This document shows, piece by piece, positions 4,332 through 52,400 of a stretch of DNA of 64,000 nt. Both the position numbers and the translations under genes were made by a program. Source of the DNA: Wolfiporia cocos (lineage: Eukaryota > Basidiomycota > Agaricomycetes > Polyporales > Phaeolaceae); contig JACCLO010000009.1 of the NCBI GenBank assembly GCA_029448655.1, positions 1,612,001-1,676,000 on the forward strand, written 5' to 3'. The notes beneath the pieces are model-generated. The model was not told the DNA's origin. It searched no databases and saw only the letters and a program-made list of their open reading frames with translations. Position 1 is the stretch's first letter. Each line of letters starts with the position of its first letter.

Positions 4332-7300
4332 TTAAGTTCCAGTAATGAAACCGCACCCGAACGCAGAGGGCCCACCGCATGCCAGACCCTCCGTGGTCGT
4401 GGTCCATTTGGGCTCCGCCGCCATTGCGACGACGGTGACACGCAAACCGTATCTAGAGCGAAACTTTGATGCGGCGGACATTGCACCGAGGCATTCTCAG
4501 GGCTTACCGGTAATCGGGAGTGCCTAGCGCCGCTCCATTCTGCGAGTCTAGGACGGTAATCAAGTCTGGGACGGTGACCAGCACCTGAAGATGATCAATG
4601 AGTGTGCACAGAGAGCCAGGAGGATGGTAATGGATACTGACCTTCTTCTCGCCTTCAGGAGATTCAACGTAGGCGTACAGGTTCTCATTCTGGAAGGGAA
4701 TGATCATGCGATCTTCCGGACCGTAAGGCAACGCGGTCGTGTTCGGCGCAGACCCTGCATTCTCCTCCTCATCCTCGAGGAGGGGAGCAATCGTCACAGA
4801 GCCCCATGTGAAACCTTTTCGTACTTCCTGCTTGAAGCATCAGGACCAATTGGACATGGCACAATGACTGCGAATCGCACCCGTTGTACGTCCACAATCT
4901 TCCCTATGAAAAGACAAGCACCATTTTGCAATTCGAGAATGGCTGATGGGATAGACTTCAGGTCGTTCTTCTTTCTACAAAGGGCTACTGCACGCCCAAT
5001 ACGCCACGCTTGTGAGACGCTACGAGAAATACCTTGGAAGCACAGTGAGTATCTTATAACTGCAACGATTCGAGCCCATATCCGCGTACCGTATTTTTGA
5101 CAGCTCGCTCTGTTCAAAGGTGCCATACTAACACCGCTTTTTGATCCCATTTCTGTAGTAACGGTGCGTAGGATTGTCTCCACGGCTTTTGGATCCCTCG
5201 CCGTGGGAAGAATCTGCTATGTGTTAGAAATGAACCAAAGTAGCGAGGACCGGCTAACGCACGATTGTATTTCCCAGAGCATCGGAGATTGCGCAAGGCC
5301 ACAAGCCTCCGGGCACGTTGAAAGCGCCTGGAAGACTGGACAGAGTCGCAGTTTACAGCGAAATAGAGACTATTGAGAGGACCGCTTACGATTGGTACAT
5401 CTATGAACCGAGCCTTCGGTGAGAGCAGCACGCCAAGATACTAGCCAACGCACGTTTGGGTATGCCCGCCCCATTAGATCAGCATCAAGAACGACCTTGC
5501 CCATTTCAGTCGCCACAATCATCGGCTGTATGCCATTTCCTCCGCCAATCTCTTCGGATACGACTCCCGCAAAGTCATTCATTCCCAGGTACTTGAGTAG
5601 CGCACGGATGGATGCGGGAATCTCATCGCCTCCTTGCAAGCGCTCGAGCTAGAAGGTGGTTATCATTACTCTCGCCGTGTCCCGGGGTTTTACTTTAGCA
5701 CAGACTTACTGAGACGCTAGGAGAGCCCTGCGATCCAGATCAGCGAAAATACTTCTGTCTGTTCACGAGCGCCCATACCATGAAAGAACAACGTAAGAAC
5801 ATGGCGTCTTCGGGAATATCATCAGGGTCGCGAACCTAGTCCATTGATGAGTTAGCATATAATTAGTTGGGACACATCGCACTGACGACAATTGATTTTC
5901 CGTCTCGCAACAGCTGGCGAGCCATGAGATAAGGTGGGTATGTGGATCCTCCTCCTCCTGTACCCAGTACGCCACATCCTTCGGCGATCCATTCTGAGTT
6001 GTCACAATCAGCACGCGTCTTGCGTCAAAGAGACTGGCAGTCGACAGACCAAGGTCGAGCTCAGACAGATTCCATGAGCGATCAGAGAGGATTTGCGGTC
6101 TGTAGGACTCGATATCGATTTGCTGATCCTCCGATTCCTCTGCCACCACAGCCTTATCTCCTTCAGCGTAGTCGGTGTCGGAGTTTTGCAGAACGCTGTC
6201 CGGAGCGCTGATTGATGCAACAGCCTCCGGAGCAAGGTCACCGGCTGCCCTGACAATGATGCGGGTAGCTTGGTTCGTAACATACTGTGGGTACTCAGTT
6301 TAGTGATTGCTATCGGAATGGGATCAGCAAGAGACTACCTGAACTGGTAGGTTCACTACCTCGACAATTTTCGTCGCCGCTACATAAACACAGCGGCGTC
6401 AGCGTATGCCTGTACGTATACCCCAACGCTACTTACCAGGATCAGCACCAGATTTGATTGCCTTGTCAATTGCTTGCACTTTTATGGCCTCAATAACGTC
6501 GTGGATGTCACGACCTTGAAGCAACTCAATCGTGTCGATCTCTCCGGCGACTATACAAAGTGATAGATTACTCGTTATGAAACGTTGTAGCTCCTCATTA
6601 GGCCTAAGTACATTTACCTTTGGCCATTGCGGCACCCACAGCATTTGCCACACTGTAGTATGGAGGCTGCAGGATCTCGCCGACTCCTACGAGCTCGTCG
6701 GGCGCAATGATGCTGCCGCCTCCCACCAATAAAATGGTGATGTCTTCTGGAGAGGTTTTCATTCTGCAGGGTGCAAATAAGCAGAGATAATTTCCGCTTT
6801 AATGAGATGACATACTTGTCGATGATACCTTCAAGCTGCTTCTTGATTTCCTTGACGGCCTTCTCAACCACTATCGGGTCAAGGTCGATGACATTTTCCT
6901 TGCTACCAAGCGAAGAACGTCCGCTTGCGACCACGATGTCGCTAGCAGTCAACACATTTCCTCCGAACACTTTCGCGTCTCGCGTGAGATAGTGCCCAAC
7001 GGAGTCAGGACCAACCGCAACATGCGGCCCTTTCAGTGTCTCTGTGATCTTCACGCGCGATCCGCCGCCAAGACCGATAGACTGAACGTCCGCCATAGAG
7101 AAGTTAGTGCGCACACCGCCGACTTCGATGAAAGCAGCGGCTTGGCGGGGAAATCCGGACGGGAGCAACACGCCGACGTCCGATGTCGTCCCGCCAATGT
7201 CGACTACAATAGTAGACTTGCGCTGCACTGTGGCCTTGTGCTCGTCGAGGCCGGCGAGAAACGCCGCCCCGCGCATGGAGTTGGTCGGCCCCGACGCAAA

Positions 7301-8430
7301 GGTGCGAATCGGCAGCTGCGCGGCGGAGGCAGCTGTCGTGAGTGTGCCATCATTTTGCGTGAGGAAGAGCGGGCAAGAGAGATTGAGTGCGCGCATGGCA
7401 TGCTGGAAACTGTGTATCGTGCGCTGCGCAAACGTCAAGATCGACGCATTGAGGATTGAGGCGTTCTCTCGCTCAAGAAACCCTACTTGTCCGACTGCGA
7501 TCGGCATAATTAGCGTGGTCGAAGCGTATATTGGCTCGGAGGATTCACCATCGCGAGAACATACAACATTGACAGAAGGGCCAAGTTCCCTCTGCACGAT
7601 CTTTCGTGCAGCAACCTCTTGCCTATCACTATTGTCGAGTGGGGAATAAATCCCACAGAGCACCACCTTCGTGTAGACCTCGCGTGAGATATAATACGAA
7701 GCTTAGGATGAAATTTCCTCACATTCTTCAGGCCCTTGCTCCTGATAATAGCGCATTGCTCGACGATTTGCTCTTCCCTCAACGACATAATTTCGCGCCC
7801 ATCGACTGCAATCGGGTGAGATCACGAACGCCCCTTAGATCAATACTTCTTACTTTCAATGCCGCCATCCACGTATCCAACATGTCCCTCAGTCAAGGCA
7901 CGAAGCCGGGCAGGGAAATCTATGAAGGGCGGGCACTGCTTGGTGTACGGACCACACAGTCGAATGACGGCGACTTTGGCAAGACGTCGCACGTCCGCCT
8001 CAAGAACTGCATTGGTGAATGCGGTCGTACCAATACTGAGGCAAGAGATGCGCTCTGGTGGAACCGCGGCGAGAGTCAGGACCTCGCGCACGGCCGCTTC
8101 GATACCCACTGAGACGTTTGACGTTGTGGGTGCTTTGAAGTGCGCGAGGACACCCCGCGACGGCTCGTGAAGGCGTGTCACATCAATAAGCACACCGTCT
8201 GTGTTGGTTCCTACAGTAATCGGTCGATCAGTATGTCGCATACGGGTCAATCACCCAAATCGGTGGCGCGACATTGCTTTCGACCATTAATAACGTAGTC
8301 AACGATAAACTTTGTTCACATTACAGCGCAAATGCAGGACCACATGCCAATCGAGTTCGTCCAGGTGTTTCTTGTTGATCAAGGACACTACAGGCTGCTT
8401 ACCTCCGACATCGACTCCAATCCGTAACAT
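4332..8430 (-). CDS. Hydantoinase/oxoprolinase (HyuA-type) fused to a DUF917 domain
   Basis: A multi-exon minus-strand gene for a single-chain protein of roughly 950-1,000 residues. The first exon (8404-8430) encodes MLRIGVDVGG. A 193-nt intron follows, then TNTDGVLIDV, together giving the nucleotide-binding start of the hydantoinase A N-terminal domain. The hydantoinase A main domain follows (VVDIGGTTSDVGVL and SIGLGGGSRV, about 7000-7220). After a short intron near 5995-6050 the DUF917 domain begins with AEGCGVLGTGGGGSTYPPY. It ends in the last exon with YGLRVTVVAMAAEP and stops at 4332. The family hydrolyses cyclic amides such as hydantoins or 5-oxoproline in an ATP-dependent way, and DUF917 includes thiohydantoin desulfurases. 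The substrate here is unknown. The next gene upstream, on the same strand, is an amidase. I did not trace every intron. Confidence 0.85.
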
Positions 8431-9570
8431 TGTGGCACGCTGATCTTCGGATGTGGCAACAAGCACTAGCTCGATGCTCGTCCCGCGGGCTACTCCACGT
8501 TATAAGGCCGTCGAAGATTAAGAAAGAAGCTTATCTGTACGAGTCAGAGTCTGATTAGCATAGCTATTGAGGGCGATAAAAGATAGCATGAATGTTACCC
8601 ATCCCCGCTTTCTTCGCAGAATAATGGTTGGAGACCGGAGTGAGACAGCGATCAAAGAGAGATAGCGAGCAATCAGCAACTGTACCACGACGATGATATG
8701 CGAAAAGGCAATCCTCTGGTAGTCTCCTACAATCAAGAGAATCCTGCGGTAGCAGTGGTCTGGGCTATCGCTATCTTACTAACCGTTTATGAGCAGATTT
8801 TGACACGGAGGCGTCATGTCAGCTCGTGCGAGACGGTATCTGATTCAAGAACAAGAACAACGCTCTAATCTTATTGCAAGTTATTCTTGACCTTCGATGG
8901 AACCGAGTCGGTGAAGACACCCTGCAGATAACTGCGCTCTAGAGACTACAGATTCTAAACGCCTGCGCCATGGAACGGTCTCAAAGTCGATGTGAAAATA
9001 TGCAAACCTGCAAGCTTCCTAAGTTGCGAGCTGAAGCTATCGGGTGAGAGACGTGATAACTTGGATTGCGAGATGCGAGTACTTGGTAGTAATCATAGTC
9101 GTTCAGCAAGTCGCAAGTGGCTAGGGGTCCCGGCGCGGCACGTGTTTGCTGGTGTTGAGAACGAGGCCTTGAGGACTAGGGAGTGGTCTGGAACGCGCGG
9201 GGCGCGTTAGGATGCGAATTCCCGAGCCGGGGTACCTTCGATAGTGGGATGACGAGGTGGGACCAGTGCGTTGAGGGTTGGCATAGACGGTCGAGACGCG
9301 TGGCACGGCTACACCACAGCTCAGCGAAAGAAGTGGGCGAGGAAAAGGACTGCAGCATGCTACTATGCGGGGACGAAAACACGTCGACGCGCTCGCTTAG
9401 TAAAACATTACTTCTGCCATAAACACGAAATAAGAGTGAGTATGGAAGGGCGTGCATACGTCTACACACTATATCAAAGCTCTACAGTATTATTGTATGG
9501 TCACTAGATTATGCACGACTCACAGGTGGATCCAAGCAATCAGCCGCAGACCTGCATTGCGCGAGATGTC
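8431..9570. other. Spacer between hydantoinase and amidase genes
   Basis: This 1.1-kb stretch should contain the promoter of the hydantoinase gene and the 3' end of the amidase gene. Short frames on both strands have no recognisable similarity. I see no gene in it. Confidence 0.4.
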
Positions 9571-20074: not shown

Positions 20075-21403
20075 TCACCGCTCACTGAACAGCCACTCCA
20101 CATCATCTTCTTTCTCTTCTCCATACCATTTGAAGGAGGGTAGATAGTCTGTACGGTCAAACGTCTTCCAACCCCTCTCGCGAGCGGCTACCTGAAACGC
20201 TTCAGGCAAGTTCAAAATGTCGACTTCGAGCATTCCTTCCCTTCTTGCTGCCTTCTCGATCTCATCCAAGAGGCTCACCACATTATCCGTCGTGGCCCTC
20301 AATCGCGTTACGACAAGCGTCGGGGTTGAGCGGAAAACGTCGACGCTCCAGGTTACAAGTGCAGCCTCCTTCCTTGACTCGTTTTGCAGAACATCTGCAA
20401 CAGATGATGTCCCGGAGGGGAGCAACATAACACCCCAAGAATCAAGTGGCATGACCAGCCGCCCATCGTTAGTGAATTTGAGAGCAAACTCGTTGGCATA
20501 GGCTCCGACGCCATAATTCGGGAGAAAAGTAAACAGCGTGTTGGGCGAGTGAGCAGATTTAATCGCTAAGTCCTGGGTCATCCACTCCGCGTCGCGATCA
20601 AAAACCGTCTTCACTTCGTCCAACGAGAGCAGCTTCCACTGCCGCCCAGCTGTATCTGCATCGTCGACTCCCACATCTCGCGCGACAGGCTCCGCAGCAA
20701 GATCGCGCATCGTGCTTACATGCCCTCCAACGAGCCACCCGTTTCCTGCTTCTGCAGAGGGCCCACATGCTCGATAGAATTCTGGGCCGATGGCACTGTA
20801 CAGCACAGAGAACTGGGCATCCCCAAGCCCGAGGTTCTGATGGACTCTGGGTGGCGCTCCCCATTCTGCTGGGAAGCTGGAGGGAAGGGCAGAACGAGGA
20901 GCGAGGATCCAGTGAAGAAGCCGCATCATATGTCGAGCATAGCCGTACCCCCTCTTGCTTGCAGGCGTGTAAACAGAGGCCACTCCGTATGCTATGACAT
21001 CCGACGGCATTGAACACTTTGCAACAACGCCATTACGGCGATAACTATAAGATGAGTTATCCATCCGATCACTATATCGTGAGTCATATAGCACTCACGT
21101 CTGACAAGAACACATGAAATCTAAAGTGGCAGGATCACTCCTAGGTGCGAGGATCCTTTGGTCGCGGCATCATGTTCAGTTGAAGCGAACTGGATCAGAA
21201 GACCGCCTCACAATCAACGTCACTTACCATGTAATATGCTTGTTACCCGCCGCGTGCTCCTTCTGATGGAGGATGTCACCGCGCCGTATGTATTGCTCGA
21301 GGGTCAACCCATGGCCCCACTCTGCAGCTGAGCGTCTACGTCCTTCAAGGATTTGCTCCGGCGTAGCCGGGAATAGGGATAGATCTGCTGGCACTAGGTG
21401 CAT
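20075..21403 (-). CDS. LYC1-like GNAT N-acetyltransferase, copy C (intact)
   Basis: Three exons (21228-21403, 21099-21155, 20075-21044) encode about 400 residues. Intron positions and phases are the same as in copy A at 323-1665. The shared start (ADLSLFPATPEQ), the GNAT strand AYGVASVYTP, the acetyl-CoA loop RGYGYARHMMRLL and the C-terminal end (SFKWYGEEKEDDVEWLFSER) show that it is a full paralogue. The likely role is acetylation of lysine or a related small amine, by analogy with LYC1. It lies in the opposite orientation to copies A and B, about 16 kb away. Sequence differences from copy A are spread over the protein, so this is an older duplicate. Its promoter region is shared with the divergent PTEN gene. 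Confidence 0.85.
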
Positions 21404-22532
21404 GCGACAATGATACTGCTGTTGATCTCTGTGTTTCCTCGACGGGTACAGGAACAAGAGGTTACAGCAATCTCGTGCACTTTGACTTGCTCGAGGTTAA
21501 TCCATAATGTCCCACACGGTATATATATGGCCTTTGAAACTCCGCGGTGGCTGAAGCGCAGGGGTGGCTGGCTCGGCGTTACAGATAAGTTGGTTGCGAA
21601 ACTCTCTAATGTTTCACAGGATGATGGCATAGATCTATTCGTTCTACTGTGACTTAGGTCAGATTCCGCACAGGAATAATTTGCAACTGGCTGAATTCGG
21701 GAGGAAGGCCTAAGCCTCGAAACCCAGCGATTCTGCAGTGGTAAGCGCCAGCCTGAGTCACGGTGAATCTGAGGCAAGCTTGAGGCTCGATTTTGGAACA
21801 TCTCCGGGGCTAAATTATGTGGCTGCAGAACCTCTAAAACACATTTTCATGCCATTCAGTGAGCGCCATCTCCTCCCTCTTATAAGTTTCTCTCCGTAGT
21901 TGGCCGAGATAGTTGTTGATTCTTAGACGCCCATATTATTCTCGATTCTGACGCGGTCAAGGTGTTTTGCAGTGATGAGAAATGGGGAATTATGTTTAGT
22001 ATATGCTACTGTAGAAGTGTGACATTTACGGAGACAGTGAAAGCGTATAACTCTGCAATGCCACATGCCGCATGCGAAGTTACACATACCCATTCAGCGC
22101 TCGGCGCGGTAGAGTCGGCGTTCTTACATCAAGTCATGCATTTTCACGGGGGCGGGAGGCAGCCATATGGGTCCCTCCCTCCTGTATCGACTCAACCTAG
22201 GGACTCCGTCATAGTATTTGAGACATCGAGAATTGTTGTACAATGTAATGTATGTTCAGACAATTTTGGATGATTTGTAAACTATCCCGAATGAACTCAG
22301 TGATGAGTCTACATATATCTGATCGCATATAACAAATCATATTACTGTTCACCCTGAGATGGATGACCGTTCATCTAATTCACCTTCCTCTTTTGGATAG
22401 ACACTATGACCTCACGAGACCGCCATGCTTCTCGTAGACGACCATCGTTTCAGCGGCAGACCCAGTCGAATGATACGTTGATTTCCTTGGGACGGCATCT
22501 GATCTCATTAGCATCAGACACTGACGATCACT
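21404..22532. promoter_or_regulatory. Divergent promoter region of acetyltransferase C and the PTEN homologue
   Basis: The minus-strand acetyltransferase starts at 21403 and the plus-strand PTEN homologue at 22533, so this 1.1-kb stretch must hold both promoters. I can point to no specific binding site. Frames on either strand are short and unfamiliar. Confidence 0.4.
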
Positions 22533-22538
22533 ATGTCT

Positions 22539-22543
22539 GACTT
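22539..22543 (+). repeat. Target-site duplication, left copy (GACTT)
   Basis: The five bases directly before the 5' LTR are repeated directly after the 3' LTR (30280-30284). They belong to codons 3-4 of the interrupted PTEN gene. Five-bp duplications are usual for LTR retrotransposons. Confidence 0.95.
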
Positions 22544-23336
22544 TGTCACAAGCCAATTTCAAAGCCTAGTAGAACACGCTAGCTTGGCACCCCACTCACG
22601 CCGTACGCACGCTACAGCACTCTATCCGAGCCCAGCTGGAACCCCACGGCAACGCTAGTAGAAGCCCTCCGCTATACAGGACACTACGGGCACTAGCAGA
22701 CCACCAGCAGTCTAACCCTAAAACTCAGTCCAAGTCCCGGCAGCAAGACATACGCTGCCTAGTCCCTAAACCCCGGAGTCACGAGCCGACCCCTAGAGTC
22801 CAACAGGCTACTATAGCACGACGGCACGCCTTGTACAGATCAGGCTAAACCATCGCACACTACGCTATACGCCAACTAGGGGCATGGTCTACACTCGCAC
22901 GTGACCCAGTACACTAAACCTAACGCCTCGCGTCCCCACCGCACGGACACGCGCCATTACTGGCATAGACATTATACTATACCCCTTATACACCCTGACC
23001 TACGAGTACACCAGGCAGGGATAATAACCCCAGGCTCTGCACGACTGAGAACCCTACCAGTCACAGAGCGCTGTACCCCGATCGTGGCAGACCACGCCCG
23101 ATCACGGACTTAGAACCCCGCCATTACCGGCGCATCCACGATCGACGAGAACCACTGATCGAACCCGATAGACTGGCTACTCCATTGATCCGCCCCTTAC
23201 GCTACGTTACCATGGACATCCTCGCGTACCCCAGCGCTCCGATGCCATTACCGGCACGTAGCTCATAGCCAGTTAGATACCAGTACGTAGAGGCCTCTGA
23301 GCCACCGTACACAAACATGTACAAATAGATTAGGAG

Positions 23337-23343
23337 TATATAT
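23337..23343 (+). promoter_or_regulatory. TATA box of the 5' LTR
   Basis: TATATAT lies 33 nt before the inferred RNA start (A at 23370), a normal TATA-to-start distance. The same box is at 30144-30150 in the 3' LTR. Confidence 0.7.
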
Positions 23344-23369
23344 GCCGGGCAGTCTTGAGCGTAAACCTC

Positions 23370-23380
23370 AGACTTGTCTT
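23370..23380 (+). promoter_or_regulatory. Inferred RNA 5' end that serves as primer (AGACTTGTCTT)
   Basis: This 11-mer is the exact reverse complement of AAGACAAGTCT at 23474-23484, and pairing stops at both ends of the 11 bases. In Tf1 the first 11 nt of the mRNA fold back on the primer-binding site and are cleaved to prime reverse transcription. The geometry here is the same. Confidence 0.75.
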
Positions 23381-23473
23381 GGCCTTTTGTGCCTTGAGAT
23401 GCCCGGACCAGGAAGGCGCTTTCATGCGACCCACCTTCCCCCGGTGTGTGTCTTAAGGTTGCGCTTGTGTCAT

Positions 23474-23484
23474 AAGACAAGTCT
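23474..23484 (+). other. Primer-binding site (self-priming)
   Basis: AAGACAAGTCT begins one base after the 5' LTR. It does not start with the TGG expected for a tRNA-primed site. It is perfectly complementary to the inferred 5' end of the element RNA. Confidence 0.75.
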
Positions 23485-26400
23485 CAACCCCCGGGGAGGT
23501 GTTCACCACTCCCCAACCCCGGCGCACGAGGGGCAACGTGCATTTCTCTTTCGCCCTTGTTTGACTGCGGTCATCCGGGCATTGTAGATCTTACACCCAC
23601 CGCACCAGGGTTAAGGGCAACTATACCCGACGACCAGGGTCAAGGTCTTACACCCGTACACTCCAGGGTCAAGGAGTATTGGGATCTGGGGGTACATCGA
23701 GCAGCGTGAGGGGACCCCTCCTCACCGTTGTCTCTGAAGCTACTGGGCCACCCTCGCGCAATGCTTGGGCAAGGCTTTGGGTTACAACCCCACCAGCGAA
23801 ACCGTGCACCCGTCGTGAAATAATCAAAGACGATAAGGGGCCCGCTGGCAGTTTACCAGGGAGCTGAGCGATTAGTTACGGCCATTATCGGCCCGACTGT
23901 ACGGACATTACAGTCCCCCCGGTTACCATAGAACCCAGCGCCTAACCAGCGGCTGAAGGGCCCAGACAGCGGCCAGTACATTACGCCACTTGGCATATAC
24001 CATAGACTTTTACACGCCCCATCACATAGGCGGATAGATCCCGGTCCCCCGGTATCCCGGATTAGCTCTGGGGCTGGACGAGGATTCGGAGGCTGCACTT
24101 TCTTGCCGGCCTTGGGCAGAAAACCCCTTGGCGTTTCTTGGCGCATCACCGAAAAGTGATGGGTGCAGATTAGAGTAGATCGAAAGTACCCGAGAAGTAG
24201 GAGTTTGTAGTCTCCACCCCGATAGCAGCTATAGGCTGAATGCCACAGTGGGCGGGGGGCGCTCCGAAAAGATACAGGGGAAATCTGATCGTGACTCCAC
24301 TTTTTCGTACTGTAGGAATTCAGTACATACACACTCGTTACGTATACCGCCGGAGACTGGGCTTGGTCGCCCCCGGCACAGGACATTCTCTTTTGGACAT
24401 TGCCGCGAAGAACGCCGTGGCTAGAACGATTAAATCTCCATGCCGCCCTACCATGACTGGTCGCGTGAAGGGCTCAGTGGCACCCAAAGTCCTAGGGGGA
24501 AAGAACCGTGCCGCAGATCGAAAGCGGTCACCCCGAAGATGAAACACCACTGGACCCCGAGTACCCCGCAGGCCAGGGGCCGCTATAGGAGATACATACA
24601 CCCTCGTTTAGGATGGACAATATATTCCTTCTCGATAAACCCGTCCGACGTAACGTCTAGTCCGACATATCCACAGTCCACAATACATAGTCAATTAGGC
24701 AGCAAGGGTACCCAACTCCCTGCTTCATACAGAAGGCCTGCACCGTAGCGGAATCCGACACCGGCTCGTAAAGTAGAAAAGCCTCACCAGCACTTTACGC
24801 AGCCAACGCCGCCACGCACTACACCGCGCTTGGGAAAAGGAGGTACAAAACTCCCGAGCACGCCGAACGACTATACGTAGTTACTAGACCATGTATACTA
24901 CGGACTGTAAAAATCCTATACAATATACTCTATATCGGTAACCCCGAAAAGACCAAACGTAGGAAGTACACACCGGTCACTCCGACGGCACCGCGAAATC
25001 CAAGGCTGCCGTGAACATCTTGGGGGCCGCGCCTCCCTTGAGCACTCGGTATGCTAAGGACTAGCAACGCTGTGAAACCGCGTACCTACTAGGGGGAACA
25101 TAACCCGAATAAGAGTAGGGATGGACATATACAAACTGGACATAGGAAAAAGACGTATACGAAGAAACTGGACAACAAAGGAAGGAGACCGACGGAGCGA
25201 GAGGAAGCAGTAAGCTACGCTACGCAAGGACGAAGGATCGAGCTTTCGAGCTCTCTGGGATACACCAAGCATGCGGAAGCCGAACAAGTACCTGTTCCGC
25301 CACAACACGACATCCATCCACAACCGGCATCAAACCCGACTGGCACCGGCAGTCTGTCCCGAGACCGACGTAACCAAAAGCAAGTACTCCGGAGAGGAAC
25401 CCGGGGCCTGGATGCACTTCGTCCAATAGGAAACGGCTCACGGAAAAAAAAGCTTAGGAAGCGAGTATCGGACTCACACGAACCAGGTATGCCCCTTAAA
25501 TTTAATACATGGACTATACTCTGCCATAGGGCAAACCACGACCCCGAGCGATGAACCATTCCGCTCTGTCACGAACCCAAGCGGTAAACCATCCCGCTAC
25601 GAACTTTCTATTTGGAGGAATGGCCCATGGGCACTCCACCCTTTTTCAACCCCGTTATGAAATAAAATAAATACCCTGGGGAACCGCGTAATACGCGCCC
25701 ACCTAATACTTTATAAAGATATATAAATCGATGCAACCCTCAATAGTAAGGGATAACATCACGTCACGTACCACGGGTCTGGACGAGGGGAAATGGCAGC
25801 CTCGCCCAGACTCACGACCCATAACACATGAAGCGCGAACCCAGACCACGGGCGCGTGGAATCTATTCAGTACGACCCAGACAAAGGGCGTACATTTACA
25901 ATGAAGCGTGTCCCAACCCAAGAACGGGAAGGAGCACGTGGAATTTTTTATGACACCCCCGGGCGCAACCCTCCCAGACACACGGAGGACCGGGCATGCC
26001 GATGACCTAACCCTGCAGGGAGGTCATGACCACGCCTACGGGCATAGGGACATTGTACCCTGGTAGTAGCACATGTACTACCAACGGGAATAATTGAACC
26101 CGCCACGCCCAGAATGGCCTTAACCGGCGAGGACGTGAAGGGGCAGTGCAACGGAACATTCCGCGCTGTCCATACACTAAAAGTCGTACTAAATGATTCG
26201 AAACGGAATAGATCATTTAGGGAACCGAAACGACACCCCATGGATAATCGAACCGACTCGCGGACCAGCTCGTACAGCAATAATACGACCAGTCACAGCT
26301 CGAACGGCCAGAGTAAGAGGAACATTTTGAGAACATACGGAAAGTACTCCGAGAGGAAAACGGCACCGGTTACGACCCCGGCTGAGCCACCTCGGTAGAG

Positions 26401-29336
26401 GAAATCCCGTCTGATAGGCAACTACCCCACACAGGGAGTCGTAAGCCCTAGTTCAGAAATATGAACTTGATTAGTACTCCGAAGCCCGATGACTTGGCTC
26501 GCCACGCAGTACCGATCCCCGCTAATACAAGAGCCCCGGCGTACTTCACCAGCTCAGCACAAGACGGACCTATTCGATCGTCACTACATCCATGACGACC
26601 CATTCCGGGACAGCCAACGAGAACCACCGGCAGTCCACCACCGCGACGAGAAATACCGCGGGTAACGAATGCACGACCGACGTATCATTCCGGTCAATGA
26701 ACCAACCCCGCCCCCGGTCTGAACCAAGTAGATCGCGGGGATGTAAAATATATTATACTTGCTTACATTCTAGAGAAAACAGGAACAGGAGAAGTAGAAG
26801 GACCATCCCTAAAGGGGGGGTCCTGGTAACCCAATACGACGCGCACTTCCGTCGTAACCGATCAAGCCTGAGGGAACCGCAACCAAAGCAGGTGTTCCCT
26901 AGTCCTCGCGTTACCCCGCCAGGAACGCTGAGAAACCGGAACCACCAGCTGAGGAAGCAACCCCCTCCGCTCGATCTCAAAACCCCTACACCAACTAGAA
27001 TCGTCAAAAAATAAGCAAGTCGCCGCTGCCAACACACCACCCCAGCAGACGGCTGTATTAGTATACACCTATACCCCGCCTTCGACAGGATCGAGGCAGG
27101 CAGGACGTCACGTGCCGGACCCTAACCCGGAACTATGGGCCGCACACGAACCAGACGCCCAGCCACTATACCCCCACGCGCTAGATCGCGCACTTTTAAA
27201 TTCACTAACGTACATAGGAAGAAACGAACCGAGCAGGAGATCAGGCATACACCGCCTGGGCCAACGGCTGAACATGTAGCCGCCGCCAGTAAAGACCATG
27301 GAAGCCGACCAATCCCGGCATGACGCCACTCCCCAGTACCTAAGCCAGAATACGGCAGTGGGAACAGGGACCGCCTCTCATGTCCGGTTACGCGACCACG
27401 GGACTGCACCATCGTCCCTCAACCCGAATCGACCTCGTACGCGGGCCAAGCAGTGCCCCTCTTTCGACACCTTGGGCCATTGATGCCCCACACACTCATT
27501 CGGCGATTCCGGCCGTAAAACGGATCGGGCAGCTGGACAGCCCATATACCAACCCCCAGTAGACTCAGACGGCTAGAAAAGAACCAACGCCGTGACCTCC
27601 TGGTAAACCAGACCGGGCACAGCTAAGTACTTTCCTCTAAAAAGCACTATGAGGAACTCGAAAAGGGACAATATACCCTAAGAGGGAACACGGCAGAATA
27701 CGCCACCTCTTATACAATAAAAACACGAGCGAGATCCTAACGCTCTAATAGTAAAAGCATACACTCTTGCGCTCGTAGAAACCCAGGCGAGCGTGTTACG
27801 CCCTGGATTACTACGAGCATAAGATAATCCTTATACACCGAACACAGGGGCAATAGAATAGCCCATAATAATATAACGACCCATACAACCGAGAGGAGAC
27901 ATCCCTCGGAAGTATACGATTAAGCACGGGAACCTACGGGCCCGTTGCAACGACTCAATCTCTAGAAACACCGGGGAAACCCTACTAGAGATACGAATAA
28001 AACTATACCCGAGCACGAACAAGCTCACAAGGGGATAGCGCCCCTTAAACCGCTAACCACTCGTTTATATTTATAAAATAGAATAACGAACCAACAAGGA
28101 TGCGGGGAAACATACGCACCTTGAACGAACACGGAAGGACCCAAGTACCTAGAAATCGGACCAGAGCTCGCGTCCGCGCCAAGCCACCCTTCAGTACCGT
28201 AACCTTTGGGAACACGAGTCACGAACGACTCCCAGTACTATAACCTCGGGAACCAAGGCCGCTGAAGCGCCCTCAGACCAAGCATGAAGGGAAAGAAAGT
28301 AAAGGGAAAAAGTAGAAGTAGAAGGGAACAACAAGCCGAGGACAGCTTGAATCTAGGGGGGGGAAATCGATTATTTCGGGTCAAATTTAACGAAAATCAC
28401 CCCCTCTGGACATCGACGACGACACCTTGCCTCACCAAAAAACACGGTGAAGGGCTACCGCTATGCGGCATTTGGCAAAATCAAGCCATCACGCGCACAC
28501 GTACTTAGGCAGTAGACAACGGTGCAATAAGCAAAAGGCACCCTCTTACTATACGAACCCGGGGAGAGCAACCCAGACACCCCACTTCCAACGAATATTA
28601 CGATACAATAATGATCCTTACGATACAAAATCACGCCGACGATTGAAGGCGAACAAAAGAAACAAAAACATACAGAAAATACAAAATACAAAAAAACATA
28701 TACATAAAAAAGACACATACTACAGTAACGAATCACATATACCCAAGCAAAGGAACCACATCCCCCCTACTATACAGATAGGATACATACGGATAGGAAC
28801 CAGGACTTATTACTTACATTCATTTCATACCTACGGTAGACGAAACATTCCTACCACGAACCGCAGAAGACGACAGGTAACAGGTCGGACGAACAGGACA
28901 CATGGACACACGGAGCCAGCCAGTCGCTCCAGGGAAGGATACTTGCAAGCGGGTTGTGTAGAAAAGACACGCGGACATACCATACACGCACTACACTACA
29001 ACCCACTGTCAAAACCAGGGAACACGTAAGACAAAGAGCAAGGACGTCTACAGGACCCAAGGACCCGCGCGTCCAAGGTGATCCAACGGTAGACAGAGCT
29101 CAGAGTCGAACAATCTGGTCAGACAGCACCAGAAGGACATGCGGGCATAGGACCACTGAAGTAGAAAAGCTATACACTAGCACTTCAGACATCACTGGTC
29201 ACGCCTACAAGTAGACTAGAAAACACGCGGGCACTAGAACGTCGAGACCAGACCGATAGTACATCACGCCCGGTGCAGACAAGCACAGTCGAACCACGTC
29301 CAAGGAACTTGCAAGGAAACTCGGGGACGAGTTGCT
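23485..29336 (+). other. Interior of the retrotransposon, no intact gag or pol
   Basis: The plus strand looks poor in T and rich in A and C, as is common for retroelement coding strands. Stop codons nonetheless occur frequently in every frame. The longest plus frames are 28463-29029 (188 codons, a Lys/Arg/Asn/Thr-rich translation with no known domain) and 26592-27014 (140 codons). No YxDD, DTG/DSG, HHCC or chromodomain signature could be found by eye. It is either a heavily decayed gag-pol that still moves in trans or a large non-autonomous derivative (LARD-like). Confidence 0.6.
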
Positions 29337-29350
29337 AAAAGAGGGGGTAC
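29337..29350 (+). other. Polypurine tract
   Basis: AAAAGAGGGGGTAC lies directly before the 3' LTR. Such a tract primes plus-strand DNA synthesis. Its position and orientation agree with the primer-binding site at the other end. Confidence 0.75.
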
Positions 29351-30279
29351 TGTCACAAGCCAATTTCAAAGCCTAGTAGAACACGCTAGCTTGGCACCCC
29401 ACTCACGCCGTACGCACGCTACAGCACTCTATCCGAGCCCAGCTGGAACCCCACGGCAACGCTAGTAGAAGCCCTCCGCTATACAGGACACTACGGGCAC
29501 TAGCAGACCACCAGCAGTCTAACCCTAAAACTCAGTCCAAGTCCCGGCAGCAAGACATACGCTGCCTAGTCCCTAAACCCCGGAGTCACGAGCCGACCCC
29601 TAGAGTCCAACAGGCTACTATAGCACGACGGCACGCCTTGTACAGATCAGGCTAAACCATCGCACACTACGCTATACGCCAACTAGGGGCATGGTCTACA
29701 CTCGCACGTGACCCAGTACACTAAACCTAACGCCTCGCGTCCCCACCGCACGGACACGCGCCATTACTGGCATAGACATTATACTATACCCCTTATACAC
29801 CCTGACCTACGAGTACACCAGGCAGGGATAATAACCCCAGGCTCTGCACGACTGAGAACCCTACCAGTCACAGAGCGCTGTACCCCGATCGTGGCAGACC
29901 ACGCCCGATCACGGACTTAGAACCCCGCCATTACCGGCGCATCCACGATCGACGAGAACCACTGATCGAACCCGATAGACTGGCTACTCCATTGATCCGC
30001 CCCTTACGCTACGTTACCATGGACATCCTCGCGTACCCCAGCGCTCCGATGCCATTACCGGCACGTAGCTCATAGCCAGTTAGATACCAGTACGTAGAGG
30101 CCTCTGAGCCACCGTACACAAACATGTACAAATAGATTAGGAGTATATATGCCGGGCAGTCTTGAGCATAAACCTCAGACTTGTCTTGGCCTTTTGTGCC
30201 TTGAGATGCCCGGACCAGGAAGGCGCTTTCATGCGACCCACCTTCCCCCGGTGTGTGTCTTAAGGTTGCGCTTGTGTCA
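29351..30279 (+). repeat. 3' LTR (929 bp), promoter directed into the PTEN gene
   Basis: Same length as the 5' LTR with one visible difference (A at 30168). Its TATA box (30144-30150) and inferred start (30177) would produce RNA entering the PTEN gene 108 nt downstream. The first ATGs in that RNA (30206 and 30231) are not in the PTEN frame. The first in-frame ATG is at 30439, in the second PTEN exon. Confidence 0.95.
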
Positions 30280-30284
30280 GACTT
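30280..30284 (+). repeat. Target-site duplication, right copy (GACTT)
   Basis: Identical to 22539-22543. Removing the element plus one copy restores an uninterrupted reading frame across the junction. Confidence 0.95.
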
Positions 30285-32742
30285 CGTCCGTCGACTCATT
30301 TCTGGAGATAAAGCGCGCTTTCGTGATGGAGAATTACAAGTTGATTTGGGTTCGTCTATTATATGCGTTTAGAGTCCTGCCAGTCTGAATATTGCTCCCC
30401 CATCAGATCTTGTCTATATCATAAATCAAGTCATCGTTATGGGCTACCCTTCAGCAGGGCTTGAAGCCTTGTATCGCAATAGTCGAGAGGACGCTAAGAG
30501 ATTCTTGCAGCATCGTCACGGAGAGGATTATTGGGTTTTCAACTTCTGTCCAGTCAAGGAAAACTCCTATCCTTCGAGTGTTTTTGATGGGCGAGTGAGC
30601 AGATACCCCTTTCCCGATCACCAGTACGTCTTCAATCTGTCCTGATTGCTAGTGGTACGCCGGCATACGCGATGCTTTCAGTCATGAGCGTAGTCAGTCC
30701 AATGGGCCAGGGAACTGCCAAAGTGGGAGGACCTGTGGCATCATAGTGCTTATGAAGATCTTTGGGCACCAGGATAATGGGAATATTGTCCAGATAACCT
30801 ATAGCTGACAGACTGCACACTGACTCATCATTGTCCTGGTGCTCGGGGATGCTCAGAACACTCCTTGCGTATCGTCGATTTCTGAGCGTCTGGCATTGTA
30901 TTAATTTGATCATCCTGAGACTGCTCATTTCGCAAAACGTTCGTTTTCCGGATGTCTCTTGAACTCCACGAGCAGAGCCCTTCGCCTATGGCGCTCTAGT
31001 GATTGTAGCATTCTGCATATGGTCGTCATTGGCTGTATGGACCTATTGATGGAGGATCACGTTACAGCACACCACCGCTTGCGATACTGCCCCTCGTGGT
31101 TCGCGAGATGCGGGTATGGCTGGAAAAATCTTCTGAGCATGTTGCTGTGCTCCATTGCAAAGGTTTGAATCATAATCTAATCACACATAATCCTGATGAA
31201 TCATTATACTACTTTACGCGCAGCTGGAAAGGGAAGGTCTGGAACTATGGCTTGCGCATATCTGCTCGCACTGGAGTCAACCCCCACTCTGCCGTCGACG
31301 AACCGAAGCCCGACCGCGAGAGAACGAGTTGCTTCCCAAGCAGAGCAAGTGATGGACGCCATGCCATCAGACGACACCTGCAGTAGCACTGAGATATCGT
31401 CGGAGGAATCTGCCGATGTTGCACTCGATCAAAGATATCCCGAACAGTCCGGCGAGACAAAGAGCCGTCTCAGCCAAGTGCTCGAGTTGCATACTTCCCG
31501 GCGCATGAAGCGCTCCTCGTCTCCATCAAAGACGAAGCAGGGTGTAAGCATTCCAAGTCAGCGCCGCTGGCTCTACTACTGGTCGCTCCTCCTCGCGCGT
31601 CAGGGTCCTCCCAGATTCTGGGCGAGCGACCCAAGTACAGCAGAGAAGCCTGTGCCGAACGTTCGTCTGACGCGGATCACAGTGCGCATGCGCGAGCTGT
31701 CCGGGGTTAAGACGCATCTATTGCGCGCAGCTAATGCGGTCATCGAGCGGACAGGTTATGCCAAAGCGACAGTCGGGAATACAGCCAATGTGGACGATAG
31801 AGACCAGGTGTGGGCGTCCCTCACGAGGTACGACGATGAATTAGTGGATCTGTTGGAGAGATGGGAGAGGAATACCCGAGATGGTGATAATATGGGGCGG
31901 AGGAAAGCCGGGTCAGATCGAATTGGCGAAGAGGTACTAGTGGACATCTTCAAGGATGACCGATGGGATAGAAGCAAGATGGTACGGAGCTTCGCACGGT
32001 TTGGCATGGAGGACAATCCTATCCTGACAGAGACCTCTGAGGCGGTAAGATGGCTTGATGGTGGCGCTCTTACCTCAGGTGGCGCCCCCACTGCTAGTGA
32101 CAATTGTACTGATGGTGTTTCGAATGTCACCAGCATGGGAAAATCACAACGCGCGCACTGCGGCCGCTGTCAGACCACAAATGGGTAGCGTCGCGCGAGA
32201 AGATCCAACAGAATCTCGAGAAACCTCAGCCTGGCTGCTCGAATGTCGACTCCGAGGAAACAAGTCCGAACGATGCCACTCATGCGGCTCGAGAAAACGA
32301 TGGACTCATCCTCAACGCTAACAGGGAGGTTCGCGTCAAGCTATATATGGGTCAAGTGAGGTGGAACCATCATACCCGGGACTTGAGGAGCTGCGATCCA
32401 ACTAACTTGTGATGCCATCAGGTGTTTATGGCCTGGTTTTGGTTCATCCCTGCTTTCCACATGCCACATTCCCGATCGAATACCGGGCCGATGGCAAGGC
32501 TAACGCTAAATCGAGAAGAGCTTGACTTTCCAATTGGCATTGGCTCACACATTGTCGACGTGCAATTGTCGTTGGAGTGGGTCCCAGAGGCTGCTCATCA
32601 TCTAGATCCACCGACACGCCAAGGAAGCCCCACATCAAGAGAGAGGCACGGGGAGCCAGCGGGGATTGCTGCATTGGTCCACGCTGCTTCAACAGATAGA
32701 CTGTCGGACATGGTGCATACTAAGCAGGCAGCCGAGGACTAG
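30285..32742 (+). CDS. Body of the PTEN homologue downstream of the transposon
   Basis: The phosphatase domain contains MGYPSAGLEALYRN, HRHGEDYWVFNFCP, VSRYPFPDH and the active-site P loop HCKAGKGRSG, split by the intron at 31163-31223. The Cys and Arg of the HCX5R motif and both P-loop lysines typical of PTEN are present, which favours phosphoinositide over protein substrates. The 821-nt fourth exon encodes a long, partly disordered, charged insert that animal PTEN lacks. The C2 domain then follows (NREVRVKLYMGQ, VFMAWFWFIPAFHM, ELDFPIGIGS), which binds the membrane. The C-terminus is Ser/His/Pro rich. The intron at 30624-31067 (444 nt) is far longer than the others. Confidence 0.9.
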
Positions 32743-46432: not shown

Positions 46433-49400
46433 TTATGATTGATGCGATGTGTTAGAAGTGAATCGTGAAAGGGCGGGGGAGTCAAACTCGAACAAATCAG
46501 ACGTTGTGTCGTAGTCGGAGTCGTCTGAATCGTCATCATACGAGGACATGTTCCCGACATCGAACACGTCCATGAAAGGGGTTTGTGGGGCGCCATGCGC
46601 TACTTCTGACGACTTTGCTAAGATGGCAGCAACCCTGGCCTCCAGTTGTCTGTGGTGCATCGGCGCTGCGGACCGCTCCTGCTGGAAATAACTGCTGAGC
46701 TCGTGGAGGTTCTGCACCATATCTCCTAGATCATCATCTAAAGGATCGTCTGGCAGAACCGGGACGTCTTCTGGCTGAAAGTCGATACGGGATGGCCTAC
46801 CGTACGATAACGACGAGTCGAGTACGGCAAGGAGATTCGCTCTGCAAAGATCGCGAAGCGCACTAGAACGAGGGACACACCAGCCAGACTCTTGCGCGAT
46901 CCCGAACACTTCGGCCACAGATTCTACCTCCTTAGCATCGGCGCGAAGATGGTGATAGAGACTCATCCGAAGGACGTGTTTCGCGGCAGGCCCGCCAGAG
47001 ATCTGCAAAGGTTCGTCGAGCACGTCAAGTGCCTGGGAAGCGAGGTCCGTCTCCAGAAGGCGCAGGAGGGGCATCAATAGCTCGGAACCAAGCAGATCGA
47101 CAGGGGATCGTGTCTCTCTCTGCTGGAATAGGACCTTCAAGATCTGCATAGTGTGTATACAGAGCCACCGCTCTTTGTTGAGCACAAGGCCCATTAGAAG
47201 AGTGATAACATGAGTCCAGTGCTCCGAGCCGTAGTGCTCGCGAAGACTTGCCACCGCCTCTCGTAGGAAATCTTCCTTCGTACGGAAACGGCTTTTCGCG
47301 AATGAAGTCATGATGCGGGAGATACTCGGCCGCTCTTCTTCGTCTGCCAACCATCCAACATTGAGCGCAAACTCTTGCAAAGATTCGTCCTGGATGCCGG
47401 AAGCCATGGCATGTAGACACCACGGGAGCGATAATGTGTATAGATCGCGAAGACGCGCCTCGGTGTCATCGATCAGCCGCGCATCACTGATTTTCGTGAG
47501 GCGCTGCAAGAGCTTGAAGGTAAGGGTAGAAGTCGATGAAGAGCGAAGTCCCGTGAGTAAGCATGACTGCAGAGAGCGTTTGCTACTCCATGTTACTGGC
47601 TGTTGCTCCAGTAGTATATCAGCCGTTCGAGGATCATCCAGGTCCACGCGGGTCAAAAGCGCATCGAGGAACTCCAGGACGTGACCAAACTCCTTCTCAG
47701 CCGTAGTTGATAGGCCTGCGACAGCGCTCCAAAACAACTTCGGCAGCAGCACCACATCAAGATCACCAGAGGAAGTCATCGCGGTCAAGGTCATAATGAT
47801 TCCGACGTTGAAAGACTGAGTACCGGAATCTTCGTGTGCGATAGTGTCTGAGAGACGTCCCAACAGAATATTCAAGTCGCGCTTCGTGACAGGTGGCGTC
47901 AACGCCCTGTATATCTGGAAGGAGCGAAGGGCCAAGTCTCGCTTGTTGCATGCTGTGCCCCACTCTAAGGCTTTGGTTCCCCAGAGCGAGCGCAGCTTCG
48001 GTTGCAGCGGCTCCAGTAGATTGAGCACCTCGGATGTTAGCCACCTAATCTTGGGGCCTGATTGGCTGACCGATTCGTCATCCCTCCAAAGTCGTCCTTC
48101 AACCTCCCGCTCCAGGTACAAAACGGCTGCCTTTAAATCTGACCGAGAGTGGTATACTGAACGATCCGCGATCTCATCATATCCAGACATGCAAGAGCGC
48201 AGGAGCTGAAAGAGCATGTGTCGTGCTCTTTGGCGAACAATCGACTGGCGATGGCTGAGATGCAGAAATAGGGCATGGATAAGCGAGGGAAGTTGTTTTT
48301 CGAACTCCCAGAATCGATCCATTGATGCTTCCGATAGGAAGAGGAGTACGTATTGGAGTTGACCTAAAGTCATCTTGGGCTGATCCGCGAAGAGAACATC
48401 AAGATCCGACCATTCTTCAATCTCCTCTGCTCCTGGATGAGTCATCTTGTGGTCGAGAGTGGGTAGATCTCGCGTAGGCTCCAACAGATTGCAGAGCTCT
48501 TCAAAAACCTTGGTGCCAATTGCACTCTGAGACAAACAGGCGACTACTCTTGATGCGCAATTGACAAACGCTGAAGTTGCGATCTTCGGGGCCAGTTCCA
48601 GCAAATATCTGACTGCGCCATAACCGTTGATTTGGTATGGCGCATCGACCAGCCGCGTCCAGAGGACCAGGACCTGCTCAGCATGGCTCTCAGCGTAGCG
48701 AACAGTCAGCGTCATCAGATGGTAGACCGCCTGACGGCCCTGCCGAGACAGTCCCGACTTTGTGGCATCCATTAGGTCTATGTTTGGAACCCAGTACTCC
48801 AGGCTCTGTAGCAAAAGCAGGGGACTGTGATCGGGATGGCTGTCGAAGACCACGGGCAGCCAGCTTGCGAACTGGGCGAGGACGTGGCTAGATTGATCAG
48901 GATGTTCACCGGCCAGAACATCCGAGATGAGGCGATGGGCATACAAGTAGACGCTGGGAGCAGAGCTACACACGGAAGCCTCATGCTGCATCAACGATAT
49001 AAGGCCAGATGATTGCTCATGTATCGCTTCCAGGATGCTAAAGGCCAGTCGACGAATCTCCAGTATGGGGTGATACAGGTTGGAAAGTCCCAGACACACA
49101 ACCTGGCTGAAGCTGAATCCATGCGCAGGAGGAACCTCGCAAATAGCCTCCGCTATGACCTCGAAGTATCGGGCATTGCTGGTGTCAAGGTCCCTTGTGG
49201 TCACAAAGGCTCGCCTGAGAACCTCGTCCAAGAATCCCCTGTCCGCGGGAGAGTGCATCAAGAGCGAACGGAGCGCCTTCCTATATCGAAAGTAGTTCAA
49301 AAACATTGCAGCTCCAGGTTATGGGTTTGCGCTTACTTTCCAGCATACTGCACAGGCTCGTGGAAAGATGCAAGGATGGCTGTCAAGCGATCCAGGGTAG

Positions 49401-52400
49401 GGCCCGCTTGGAGAGGCTTCGTGTTCATATCCAACGTGGACTTATCTGTGGGAGATGCAGATGATTGGTCCGGCGGGAAGAATGCCTTATGCTATAGGGC
49501 AAATCAACACATAGCACGGACGATATACCAAGGGATCTTACACAAAGAGCTGCCATGGCGCCGACAGCAGCGTTCGATAGGGCCCTTGTCTCCGTCTGGA
49601 ACCGCTGAATGATCTCAGCCTGATCAGCAGGATCTGTGAGGGATTTGCCAGCTGCTGTTTGCATCAAAACTAGGCGTTTTGTGACGCTTTCTGACTGCTT
49701 CCCCAACTGGCACCATTCTTCGCACAGCCTGTACAAAGCTAGATGCATATTGGCTGGGATGAAGCGGTCGGAGTCATTTAACGTCGCTAATCCGTCGAAT
49801 AAACGCTCCACTGTCCCACAGAAGTAGCGACGTAGTCTTTGCAACGAGAAGAGGTCACGGTGCTCTGGGGAAATTAGGAATGCCTGCATGTTCCGAATAT
49901 ACTTCAATACGTGAGCTAAGGCTGCTTGTTTTCCGGAAGATCGCTGATCTTGCAATAAGTGAGCGGTAAGGTAATATATGCGTGCCACCGCTGTGTGAAA
50001 CCGTTCTTGACGGCGAGCACGACCAACAACAGGGGCATTGGTGGCTTTGGGTCTCGAGTCGTCATAGAACTGACGAGACGCTAGTATAGTGAGGTCTTCG
50101 AGTAATTGCGAATATCCATGGGCAGGGAAAGAACTGATGCTTGACACTGCAACATCGCGGAAGAATGAATGGTCTGAATCGAGGAATTGGCTGAGATATT
50201 TGAAGAGATCACGAGTGGTTGTCATCTGGTCGCGCTCGAAATTGGCTTCTGACCGAGCACGAGAGTGATCTCGCATGGGGTAATTCACGGTGGGTCTCAC
50301 ATCGGAAACCTGCGTCGTAGCACAGGCGATCTTAACCCAGATGTGCCATTGATGAATGACATGCTTGTTGTCGTTGATCAGCCGAGAAATATCTTTGTCG
50401 CCGCTGGAGCCAGATCGCTGAGGCATGTTAGGCATTGTCCTATTCTGTATGCCGGATAACTGCATCATATAATGGTGGAACCTGCTCGCAGCCGCGACGA
50501 CTTTGTCGCGGAAGGCAAACAGGACTCGCGGGGCCGAATCCATACAGCCTTGCAAGAAGGCAGGATAAATGTGCGTCCAGAGATTGCGATCAGTGAGCGT
50601 ATCGGAATCAGCTAATTGCAGTGCCAGATCTGATCGGCCCAAGTGCTTCAGCTCCTCCAAGCGCACTGCTTCGTCCGGCTCTAAAACATCCGAGTGGCCA
50701 TTCAGGTACGCGTTAGATGCCGCCTTGCCGTGCAGGGCCAGCACGAAGCGGAACGGTGTGTCTGATCCACTATGGTCCGACGATGTTGGCTCCAATTCCA
50801 AGTGGCTCTCAAGGACGCCTAGCAGGCGAATGGCTTTGACGCCAACGGTATAGACAGTCCTCCTATTGTGACACAGGAGGAAGAGGGAACCTGCTACGAT
50901 CTCTTCCGACCTCGCAAGAATATCTTGCACTTCATTTGTGTCCAATGTCTCGCACAGTTTCTGCATGGTGTAGCTGACCCACTGATCCACGAAGCTGAGC
51001 CAAAGGTTGAGCAACCGTGTTGACTCAACGTTGAGCCTCAGTCCCGAACCTTCGTTGGAGATGAGCGTTGAGTCGAATAGGAAGGTAGACATCCGAGAGA
51101 GTAAGGCAGATGCGTGGGTGTGATCTGCCATGAAGCGCTGCAGCGCGAGGACGGCGGCCTCTCCAACGGCAGGTTCAACGTGTACAACGCCACGGATCAG
51201 CATGTCGAAAGCATCCGCAGGCGCAAGCGAGGAATCAAGACAGCGCGGCCATGTTTGGAACACCATTTGTAATACGCTGATCTGTGGCATGAATTGAGAA
51301 GGGTAGGCCACGGAGCCCTCTGGGTGGCGGCGGATTGTGTAATTGTGCGCGTCCTCGAATGTGGGGCTGAGACGAGTCGCGGACCATTGATCATCGAGCA
51401 CAGACCATTTTCCAACGGTTTGGTAGCACAGGACTGCCACCGTTTTCAAACAGGCATTAGACCGCTCCAGCAAATCTGTCCACCCTGACTTCAAGGAAAG
51501 CGATGACGGAATCAGGTCTGACGAAGACGGGTAATCACTTGGGAGAGGCAATACGGAGAAATCAGCGGAGGATGGCCAGGTTGGGGTCGGCTCGTCTCGC
51601 TCTAAGACATGCAGCGAAAGCAGAATAGCACTTGTGGCAATTGCCATTCTCTCCGGGGCTAGCACACCCAAAGGACCGGTATTCTGTCCTGCTATACTGT
51701 GTTCCTGAAGCAACTCCAAGCAGAATTCGCTACCGAAGTCGAAGTGGCGTGAGAGTATGTAATGAACCATGTACGTGATTGGCTCTATGCGCTCTTCCTG
51801 AGGGTTGACCGTAAGGCGGTTTGTAGGGAAGAAATGCTTCAGGATAGCCTCCAGCTTCGTAATCGCCGCGGACCCAGGCTCGTGGCATCTGTAGAGATAC
51901 GTCCAAAGTAGACGCAACATCCCGTTCAGCACAGGCACTCGATACACCTTTTCCTACGATGAAACGTTCAGCATTTGGTTCAGGAACAAGCGGGTCAGAA
52001 GTACCAACTTTCATCTTACTCAAACCGGCCTCGAAGCATGTGCTCCAATGTTTCAGGAAATATTCTTGTGGCGCCACGCACAGAGACGTCACGGCTAAAG
52101 GATAGGCGACATGCCAGTACCTTGGCTTGGCCATCATGTCCCGGGCCCGGGGGAATATGACCTCAATCGCTTTGGCCCATTCCGGATGATTGACCTCAGC
52201 CTGCGCAGTCTGCGGATGCAATCACATCAGTCCAGATGTCAAATTTAGTACGTAGAAGTTCACCTTGGCTATAGGATGGAGCATGTGCACAAGAGTCTCT
52301 GCAAAGATGGTCTTCAAGCGGTTGCCGTGCGCGTTTTCAAATGATTTTGACAGCGACGCCATAAATTCTGCTCCTTCCTCGAATGATTCCGGCGGCCAAA

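Follow-up and report, generated by a model that had tools for sequence, protein, structure and literature searches.

A probably recent insertion of a noncoding, putatively self-primed LTR retrotransposon in the PTEN gene of Wolfiporia cocos

Overview of the interrupted locus

We analysed a stretch of 64,000 nucleotides of Wolfiporia cocos DNA (the window; contig JACCLO010000009.1 of assembly GCA_029448655.1, positions 1,612,001 to 1,676,000), in which a homologue of the phosphatase gene PTEN carries a long terminal repeat (LTR) retrotransposon within its coding sequence. Our reading, to which we assign a probability of roughly 0.86, is that a non-autonomous and self-primed LTR element came to lie, likely through one recent retrotransposition, in the sole PTEN gene found, and that it would abolish full-length PTEN. 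According to this explanation, the proteins of a helper-type relative would copy the noncoding element in trans. With AGACTTGTCTT, inside the LTR, as its first bases, the element RNA would fold back and pair with the complementary AAGACAAGTCT past the 5' LTR, as in Tf1, and the copy would integrate 11 nt into the PTEN coding sequence, duplicating GACTT. Transcripts from the PTEN promoter would then encode a 41-residue peptide ending in the 5' LTR, while those from the 3' LTR could yield only a protein starting at M37, devoid of the N-terminal segment that binds phosphatidylinositol 4,5-bisphosphate (PI(4,5)P2) in the PTENs studied so far.

The kind of event, an LTR insertion in a gene, is already well known. 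Among the points that are new beyond the initial annotation of this DNA is that the element, judged from its reading frames, is noncoding and non-autonomous. A search of titles and opening abstracts, mostly of papers outside subscription, found, among the papers listed, no earlier report of the PTEN insertion and no paper on fungal PTEN alongside Wolfiporia, and the main text of PMC9503964 has zero occurrences of PTEN, phosphatase, phosphatidylinositol or LARD. We infer that the source strain is the homokaryon W. hoelen CGMCC 5.545 SS20.

Structure of the insertion

The element occupies 22544-30279 (7,736 bp) and lies inside the PTEN coding sequence after nucleotide 11. Its parts, all on the + strand, are as follows.

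22539..22543, +, left copy of the target-site duplication GACTT, flanking the LTR end
22544..23472, +, 5' LTR of 929 bp with ends TGTCAC...GTGTCA
23473..29350, +, internal region of 5.9 kb with no recognisable coding sequence
29335..29347, +, purine tract CTAAAAGAGGGGG, close ahead of the 3' LTR
29351..30279, +, 3' LTR of 929 bp, its predicted RNA start (30177) directed toward PTEN
30280..30284, +, right copy of the target-site duplication GACTT, flanking the LTR end

Paired LTRs, TG..CA ends and a target duplication identify the element as an LTR retrotransposon, and it has a primer-binding site (PBS) and a purine tract as well. The LTR pair shows a single mismatch (G at 23361, A at 30168), and a chance origin of the pair is excluded because 928 of 929 bases agree. 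The initial annotation had placed a retrotransposon 11 nt into the PTEN frame with a GACTT duplication; the host ATG at 22533 and both copies of the duplication could be located, and the matched LTRs with GACTT on both sides bear out one clean insertion event. The span that it gave, 22533..30349, contains a real insertion, but the element proper is shorter, 30349 being the end of the interrupted exon. Its description of the insertion as fresh holds in a relative sense: the one LTR difference corresponds, with two assumed rates and to an order of magnitude only, to ~54,000-513,000 years. A single recent retrotransposition is the likely route of arrival. Rfam and tRNA scans across the window gave no match.

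The interrupted PTEN gene

The PTEN gene is split by the element into a short coding start and a long remainder, all on the + strand.

22533..22543, +, coding start, first 11 nt (ATG TCT GAC TT), severed from the remainder; the orthologue of W. cocos MD-104 starts MSDF
30280..30349, +, remainder of exon 1, reading DFVRRLISGDK...
30407..30623, +, exon 2, holding the first in-frame ATG (M37) at 30439
31068..31162, +, exon 3
31224..32044, +, exon 4; the P-loop HCKAGKGRSG straddles exons 3-4
32134..32355, +, exon 5
32422..32742, +, exon 6 through the stop codon at 32740-32742

Downstream of the element the six exons are open to the stop codon and are separated by five GT...AG introns of 57, 444, 61, 89 and 66 nt. 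The nearest protein is that of W. cocos MD-104, which has 583 aa, begins MSDFVRRLVSGDK and is 97% identical over the full length to the window protein. Without its first two residues it aligns gap-free with all 581 downstream residues of the window.

Identification of the gene as a PTEN homologue is upheld by the match of the MD-104 orthologue to PTEN in PDB 7jvx (E 2e-37, residues 2-144). The P-loop pattern HCKAGKGR[ST]G is present as HCKAGKGRSG in both the window and MD-104 proteins, aligned with 7jvx. The YPFxDH region, which we take to be the general-acid Asp region of PTEN, reads YPFPDH in the window protein and YPFEDH in 7jvx, and the IPSQRR segment after the phosphatase core is kept (VSIPSQRRWLYY against VTIPSQRRYVYY in 7jvx). 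The earlier claim that the rest of the gene splices in frame to its stop with the active-site residues is in agreement with the six open exons and these three motifs. A C2 domain scan gave no C2 model at E 0.001 for either the MD-104 or the window protein; alignments with the listed fungal homologues cover most of the protein. A search of the assembly (64,431,438 bases in 76 contigs) with the exon-4 protein returned one match, the window's own, among 7 scored candidates.

Two further features of the gene were observed. Intron 2 (30624-31067) is 444 nt long, against 57-89 nt in the other four; a nested insert was considered as a possible source of its length; the sole genome match of the intron is the intron itself, and its inverted repeats are weak. 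Upstream, an open reading frame (ORF) of 44 codons at 22406-22540 is closed by a TGA overlapping the start of PTEN (TATGTCTGA), and it could possibly control PTEN translation.

A noncoding element family

The longest ORF in the interior of the PTEN element is 206 aa, on the minus strand, and lies in the range given by 50 shuffles (longest 125-256 aa). A Pfam scan of all 31 element ORFs of at least 80 aa, LTRs included (E limit 0.01 for six ORFs and 0.1 for the others), gave none over cut-off, one match at E 0.096 falling below its own cut-off. The gag-pol coding capacity of an autonomous Ty3/gypsy element was found in none of these 31 ORFs. Six relatives in the genome (L035, L036, L041, L043, L044 and L045) share most of the interior, and none of them has an ORF longer than 206 aa.

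The family is repetitive. With 40 of 908 candidates scored, the LTR has at least 45 genome matches, of which 40 are nearly complete, and at least 46 and 40 matches were found to the leader and to the purine-tract end, respectively. A survey of LTR flanks at 30 loci yielded six LTR pairs and 18 LTRs unpaired within those loci. The pairs differ by 0, 0, 0, 0, 1 and 1 bases, all six have 5-bp duplications, and the 12 nt AAGAGGGGGTAC stand before the 3' LTR in every one of the six paired copies. Perfect 5-bp duplications also flank 13 of the 18 unpaired LTRs, two of which (L014 and L015) have identical flanks. The near-identity of the six LTR pairs, their duplications and the lack of recognisable coding sequence in the interior therefore mark the LTR family as non-autonomous and recently mobile.

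Among the scored copies, the one nearest to the LTRs of the PTEN element is a solo LTR, L003 (C12:178634-179561), which has a 5-bp duplication of its own and shows 3 and 2 differences in 929 bases. Identical 12-nt flanks on both sides were seen on different contigs in two cases, L014 (C18) with L015 (C14) and L019 (C3) with L022 (C1), which suggests duplicated segments or redundant contigs.

Putative self-priming

Three features in and next to the 5' LTR bear on the start and the priming of the element RNA.

23337..23343, +, TATA-like TATATAT in the 5' LTR, its first base 33 nt ahead of where the RNA is predicted to start; related LTRs match this spacing within a base
23370..23380, +, AGACTTGTCTT, the 11 nt with which the element RNA is predicted to begin (self-primer), matching the primer-binding region
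23474..23484, +, primer-binding site AAGACAAGTCT, one base past the 5' LTR and complementary to AGACTTGTCTT

When the PBS region was shuffled 2000 times, an 11-nt match between LTR and PBS arose in 6 cases. Allowing up to 3 mismatches, the LTR end together with the PBS recurs at 236 places and the reversed pattern at 0. Two types of element exist, with A or G at one PBS position, and in all 13 distinct contexts (from 17 rows, of which 4 are marked as repeats) the LTR stretch is complementary to the PBS of its own type and never to the other. Tf1 has been reported to prime with the first 11 bases of its own RNA (PMC7175516), and the observed complementarity suggests that the PTEN element uses Tf1-type self-priming.

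A candidate helper element

A related Ty3/gypsy-like element, L042, has one open frame of 2,252 aa (1769-8524, minus strand). When taken in four pieces, this frame matches dUTPase, aspartyl protease, RVT_1, RT_RNaseH, Integrase_H2C2 and Tf2-1-like SH3 models over the Pfam cut-offs, with the dUTPase domain preceding the protease. L042 and the PTEN element have in common the end of the LTR, the leader and 46 nt at the purine tract and the start of the 3' LTR. L042 is the best helper candidate, and the PTEN element would have been mobilised in trans by L042-like proteins.

Four A-type copies were also considered as possible helpers, and none proved better than L042. ORFs reach 993 aa in L046 and 753 aa in L047, but both copies lack an exact LTR match; in L048 the match is present and no ORF is longer than 250 aa.

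Consequences for PTEN and alternative explanations

Translation from the host ATG would proceed for 41 codons before a stop within the 5' LTR. RNA from the 3' LTR start at 30177 would present out-of-frame ATGs at 30206, 30231 and 30326 ahead of the in-frame M37 at 30439. An in-frame rescue from the 3' LTR was looked for and rejected: no in-frame ATG reads into PTEN, and a TGA closes the frame. In the PTENs studied so far, the N-terminal segment, which an M37 product would lack, binds PI(4,5)P2 and stabilises membrane binding (available text of PMC7048775 and PMC3323581). The 41-codon stop, the out-of-frame ATGs and the missing N-terminal stretch therefore predict loss of full-length PTEN in this strain. 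The initial annotation had called the allele a knock-out of a PIP3 phosphatase, which is well supported at the level of sequence, with room left for a weak truncated product.

Such a product is the substance of the alternative that survives best, namely that the allele is not null and that the 3' LTR promoter or reinitiation gives an M37-start PTEN with some activity, making it a hypomorph or a rewired allele. In its favour, an RNA start, preceded by a TATA-like box, is predicted ~100 nt ahead of the gene and in the same direction. The ATG at 30439, with G at +4, begins a frame of 547 residues that includes the whole P-loop, and the remainder of the protein is without accelerated change. However, rescue by a 3' LTR transcript looks poor because three out-of-frame ATGs come ahead of M37, one of them opening 53 codons; the segment removed is needed elsewhere for stable membrane binding of PTEN (PMC7048775, in part), and transposable elements are reported to be more methylated than genes in SS20 (available text of PMC9503964). 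We consider a functional M37 product unlikely; it is one of the points that weigh against our explanation.

The other such points concern mostly the element. The genome searches scored best candidates only, and the Pfam scan was confined to ORFs of at least 80 aa. The N-terminal piece of L042 gave no Gag match over the Pfam cut-off, its likeness to the PTEN element is partial (69-78%, and 87% over the 46 nt), and its PBS type differs from that of the PTEN element. Among the four further A-type copies, L048 has the LTR complement, whereas L046, L047 and L049 are without an exact one, and the covariation between LTR and PBS comes to roughly a single change separating two lineages. The naming of the strain is likewise inferential.

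A second alternative is that PTEN was dead in this lineage before the element landed, so that the insertion marks an old pseudogene. The window and MD-104 proteins differ at 18 of 581 residues, and comparison with 49 further homologues assigns 6 changes to the window side and 8 to the MD-104 side, leaving 4 unassigned. Two of the window-side changes, V9I and A330T, fall at positions invariant or nearly so in those homologues, which would favour this alternative. However, window-side changes are no more numerous than those of MD-104, the catalytic motif is intact, and the six exons are free of stops, frameshifts and splice-site losses. The coding remainder is thus without sign of long decay, in keeping with the earlier view that this is not an old pseudogene, and a pseudogene older than the insertion seems very improbable.

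It could also be argued that the true PTEN start lies elsewhere and that the element sits merely in a 5' untranslated region or an intron. A homologue search yielded 1,153 proteins at E <=0.001 among 7,996 scored candidates, and the best 120 were aligned. Exactly two residues precede the aligned D3 in 114 of these 120, MD-104 included, as would be expected if the ATG at 22533 is the start that the initial annotation had assumed. The remaining six have 0, 0, 3, 5, 47 and 190 residues before D3; two of them are thus extended upstream, two have short leads and two have none. With no in-frame ATG of the 3' LTR joined to PTEN either, a start elsewhere has very little to recommend it. Equally hard to credit is an assembly artefact, in which a copy of the element would have been wrongly joined to an intact PTEN gene. 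The repetitive family, with its 40 or more near-full-length LTR matches, could cause misjoins, but a misjoin does not produce both matching TG..CA ends and a 5-bp duplication of a unique target. In addition, the solo LTR, the nearest of the other LTRs compared, differs from this pair by 3 and 2 bases, and PacBio coverage of ~330x is reported in PMC9503964.

Comparison with known systems

Large retrotransposon derivatives (LARDs) are a class of non-autonomous LTR elements best known from plants. The PTEN element resembles them in its noncoding interior of several kb, its LTRs, PBS, purine tract and target duplications, and in belonging to a repeated family that appears to have moved recently without proteins of its own. 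In contrast to the LARDs, its host is a fungus and its PBS is complementary to its own LTR.

The 11-nt complementarity between an LTR-internal stretch and a PBS beside the 5' LTR is shared with Tf1/Tf2 of Schizosaccharomyces pombe (PMC7175516, in part), and L042 matches a Tf2-1-like SH3 domain. Unlike Tf1/Tf2, the PTEN element is without recognisable Gag or Pol, and self-priming is here deduced from sequence. Gypsy elements bearing a dUTPase have been described in the brown-rot fungus Postia placenta (available text of PMC2864245); L042, likened to them by description, likewise has a dUTPase, whereas the PTEN element does not.

Neighbouring genes

Elsewhere in the window, two ORFs resembling LYC1-like acetyltransferases, at 586-1665 (+) and 20075-21094 (-), lie in opposite orientation ~18 kb apart. 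Two long ORFs with cell-morphogenesis MOR2/PAG1 domains are present at 46433-51953 (-); the larger has one genome match, and the two are likely one gene.

Strain, signalling and phenotype

That SS20 is a homokaryon was concluded from culture traits together with SSR markers and a heterozygosity of 0.01% (available text of PMC7868546). If the strain is indeed SS20, there is no second nucleus hiding an intact PTEN allele, and a carrier of the insertion is viable. The earlier suggestion of an empty site in the other nucleus would then be inapplicable.

The initial annotation had also expected raised PI3K-type signalling. A genome search with PI3K_C2 gave one match, in a gene whose adjacent ORF (L038) has its best score with class III PI3K at E 1.4e-32, the best class I chain reaching 1e-12; the same search matched in none of the control genomes. 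Class I PI3K was looked for with PI3K_rbd, which gave no match in this genome, but it gave none in the control genomes either and carries no weight. The sole PI3K_C2 match thus sits in a class III (Vps34-like) gene, and with only a Vps34-class PI3K found the mammalian class I PI3K picture is not to be transferred here, which leaves that expectation with little foundation.

The nearest experimental parallel comes from another basidiomycete, Ustilago maydis, in which a ptn1 deletion leaves a viable PTEN-less fungus with normal axenic growth and reduces cell-wall stress tolerance, virulence and spore germination (available text of PMC6462984). That case is an engineered deletion in a smut, whereas the present one would be a natural insertion in Wolfiporia. 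SS20 is reported to grow at less than half the rate of its parent on PDA and at about a third of it on sawdust, to be brown, to leave the medium neutral and not to fruit, traits that the authors ascribe to homokaryons and that SS31 shares (PMC7868546, in part). In other work homokaryons equalled the parent in some strains and were slower in others (PMC11354754, in part). Homokaryosis therefore confounds the comparison, and PTEN is at most a possible contributor to the SS20 traits. The wider proposal, that a noncoding self-primed family and a dUTPase-bearing Ty3/gypsy helper made a natural PTEN-null homokaryon whose allele contributes to the slow growth, brown colony, non-acidified medium and lack of fruiting of SS20, is one that we regard as speculative and rather doubtful.

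Implications

The insertion is a clean and natural candidate for loss of PTEN function in an Agaricomycete for which a Vps34-class PI3K is the only one found. The role of PTEN without class I PI3K could therefore be tested by comparing siblings that are distinguished by this single site. A further point of interest is the family of noncoding and apparently self-primed elements, which has recently been mobile in a fungus and for which there is a candidate helper. If the assembly is that of SS20, a reference homokaryon of this species would have a disrupted signalling gene, which would be relevant to users of its genome and transcriptomes.

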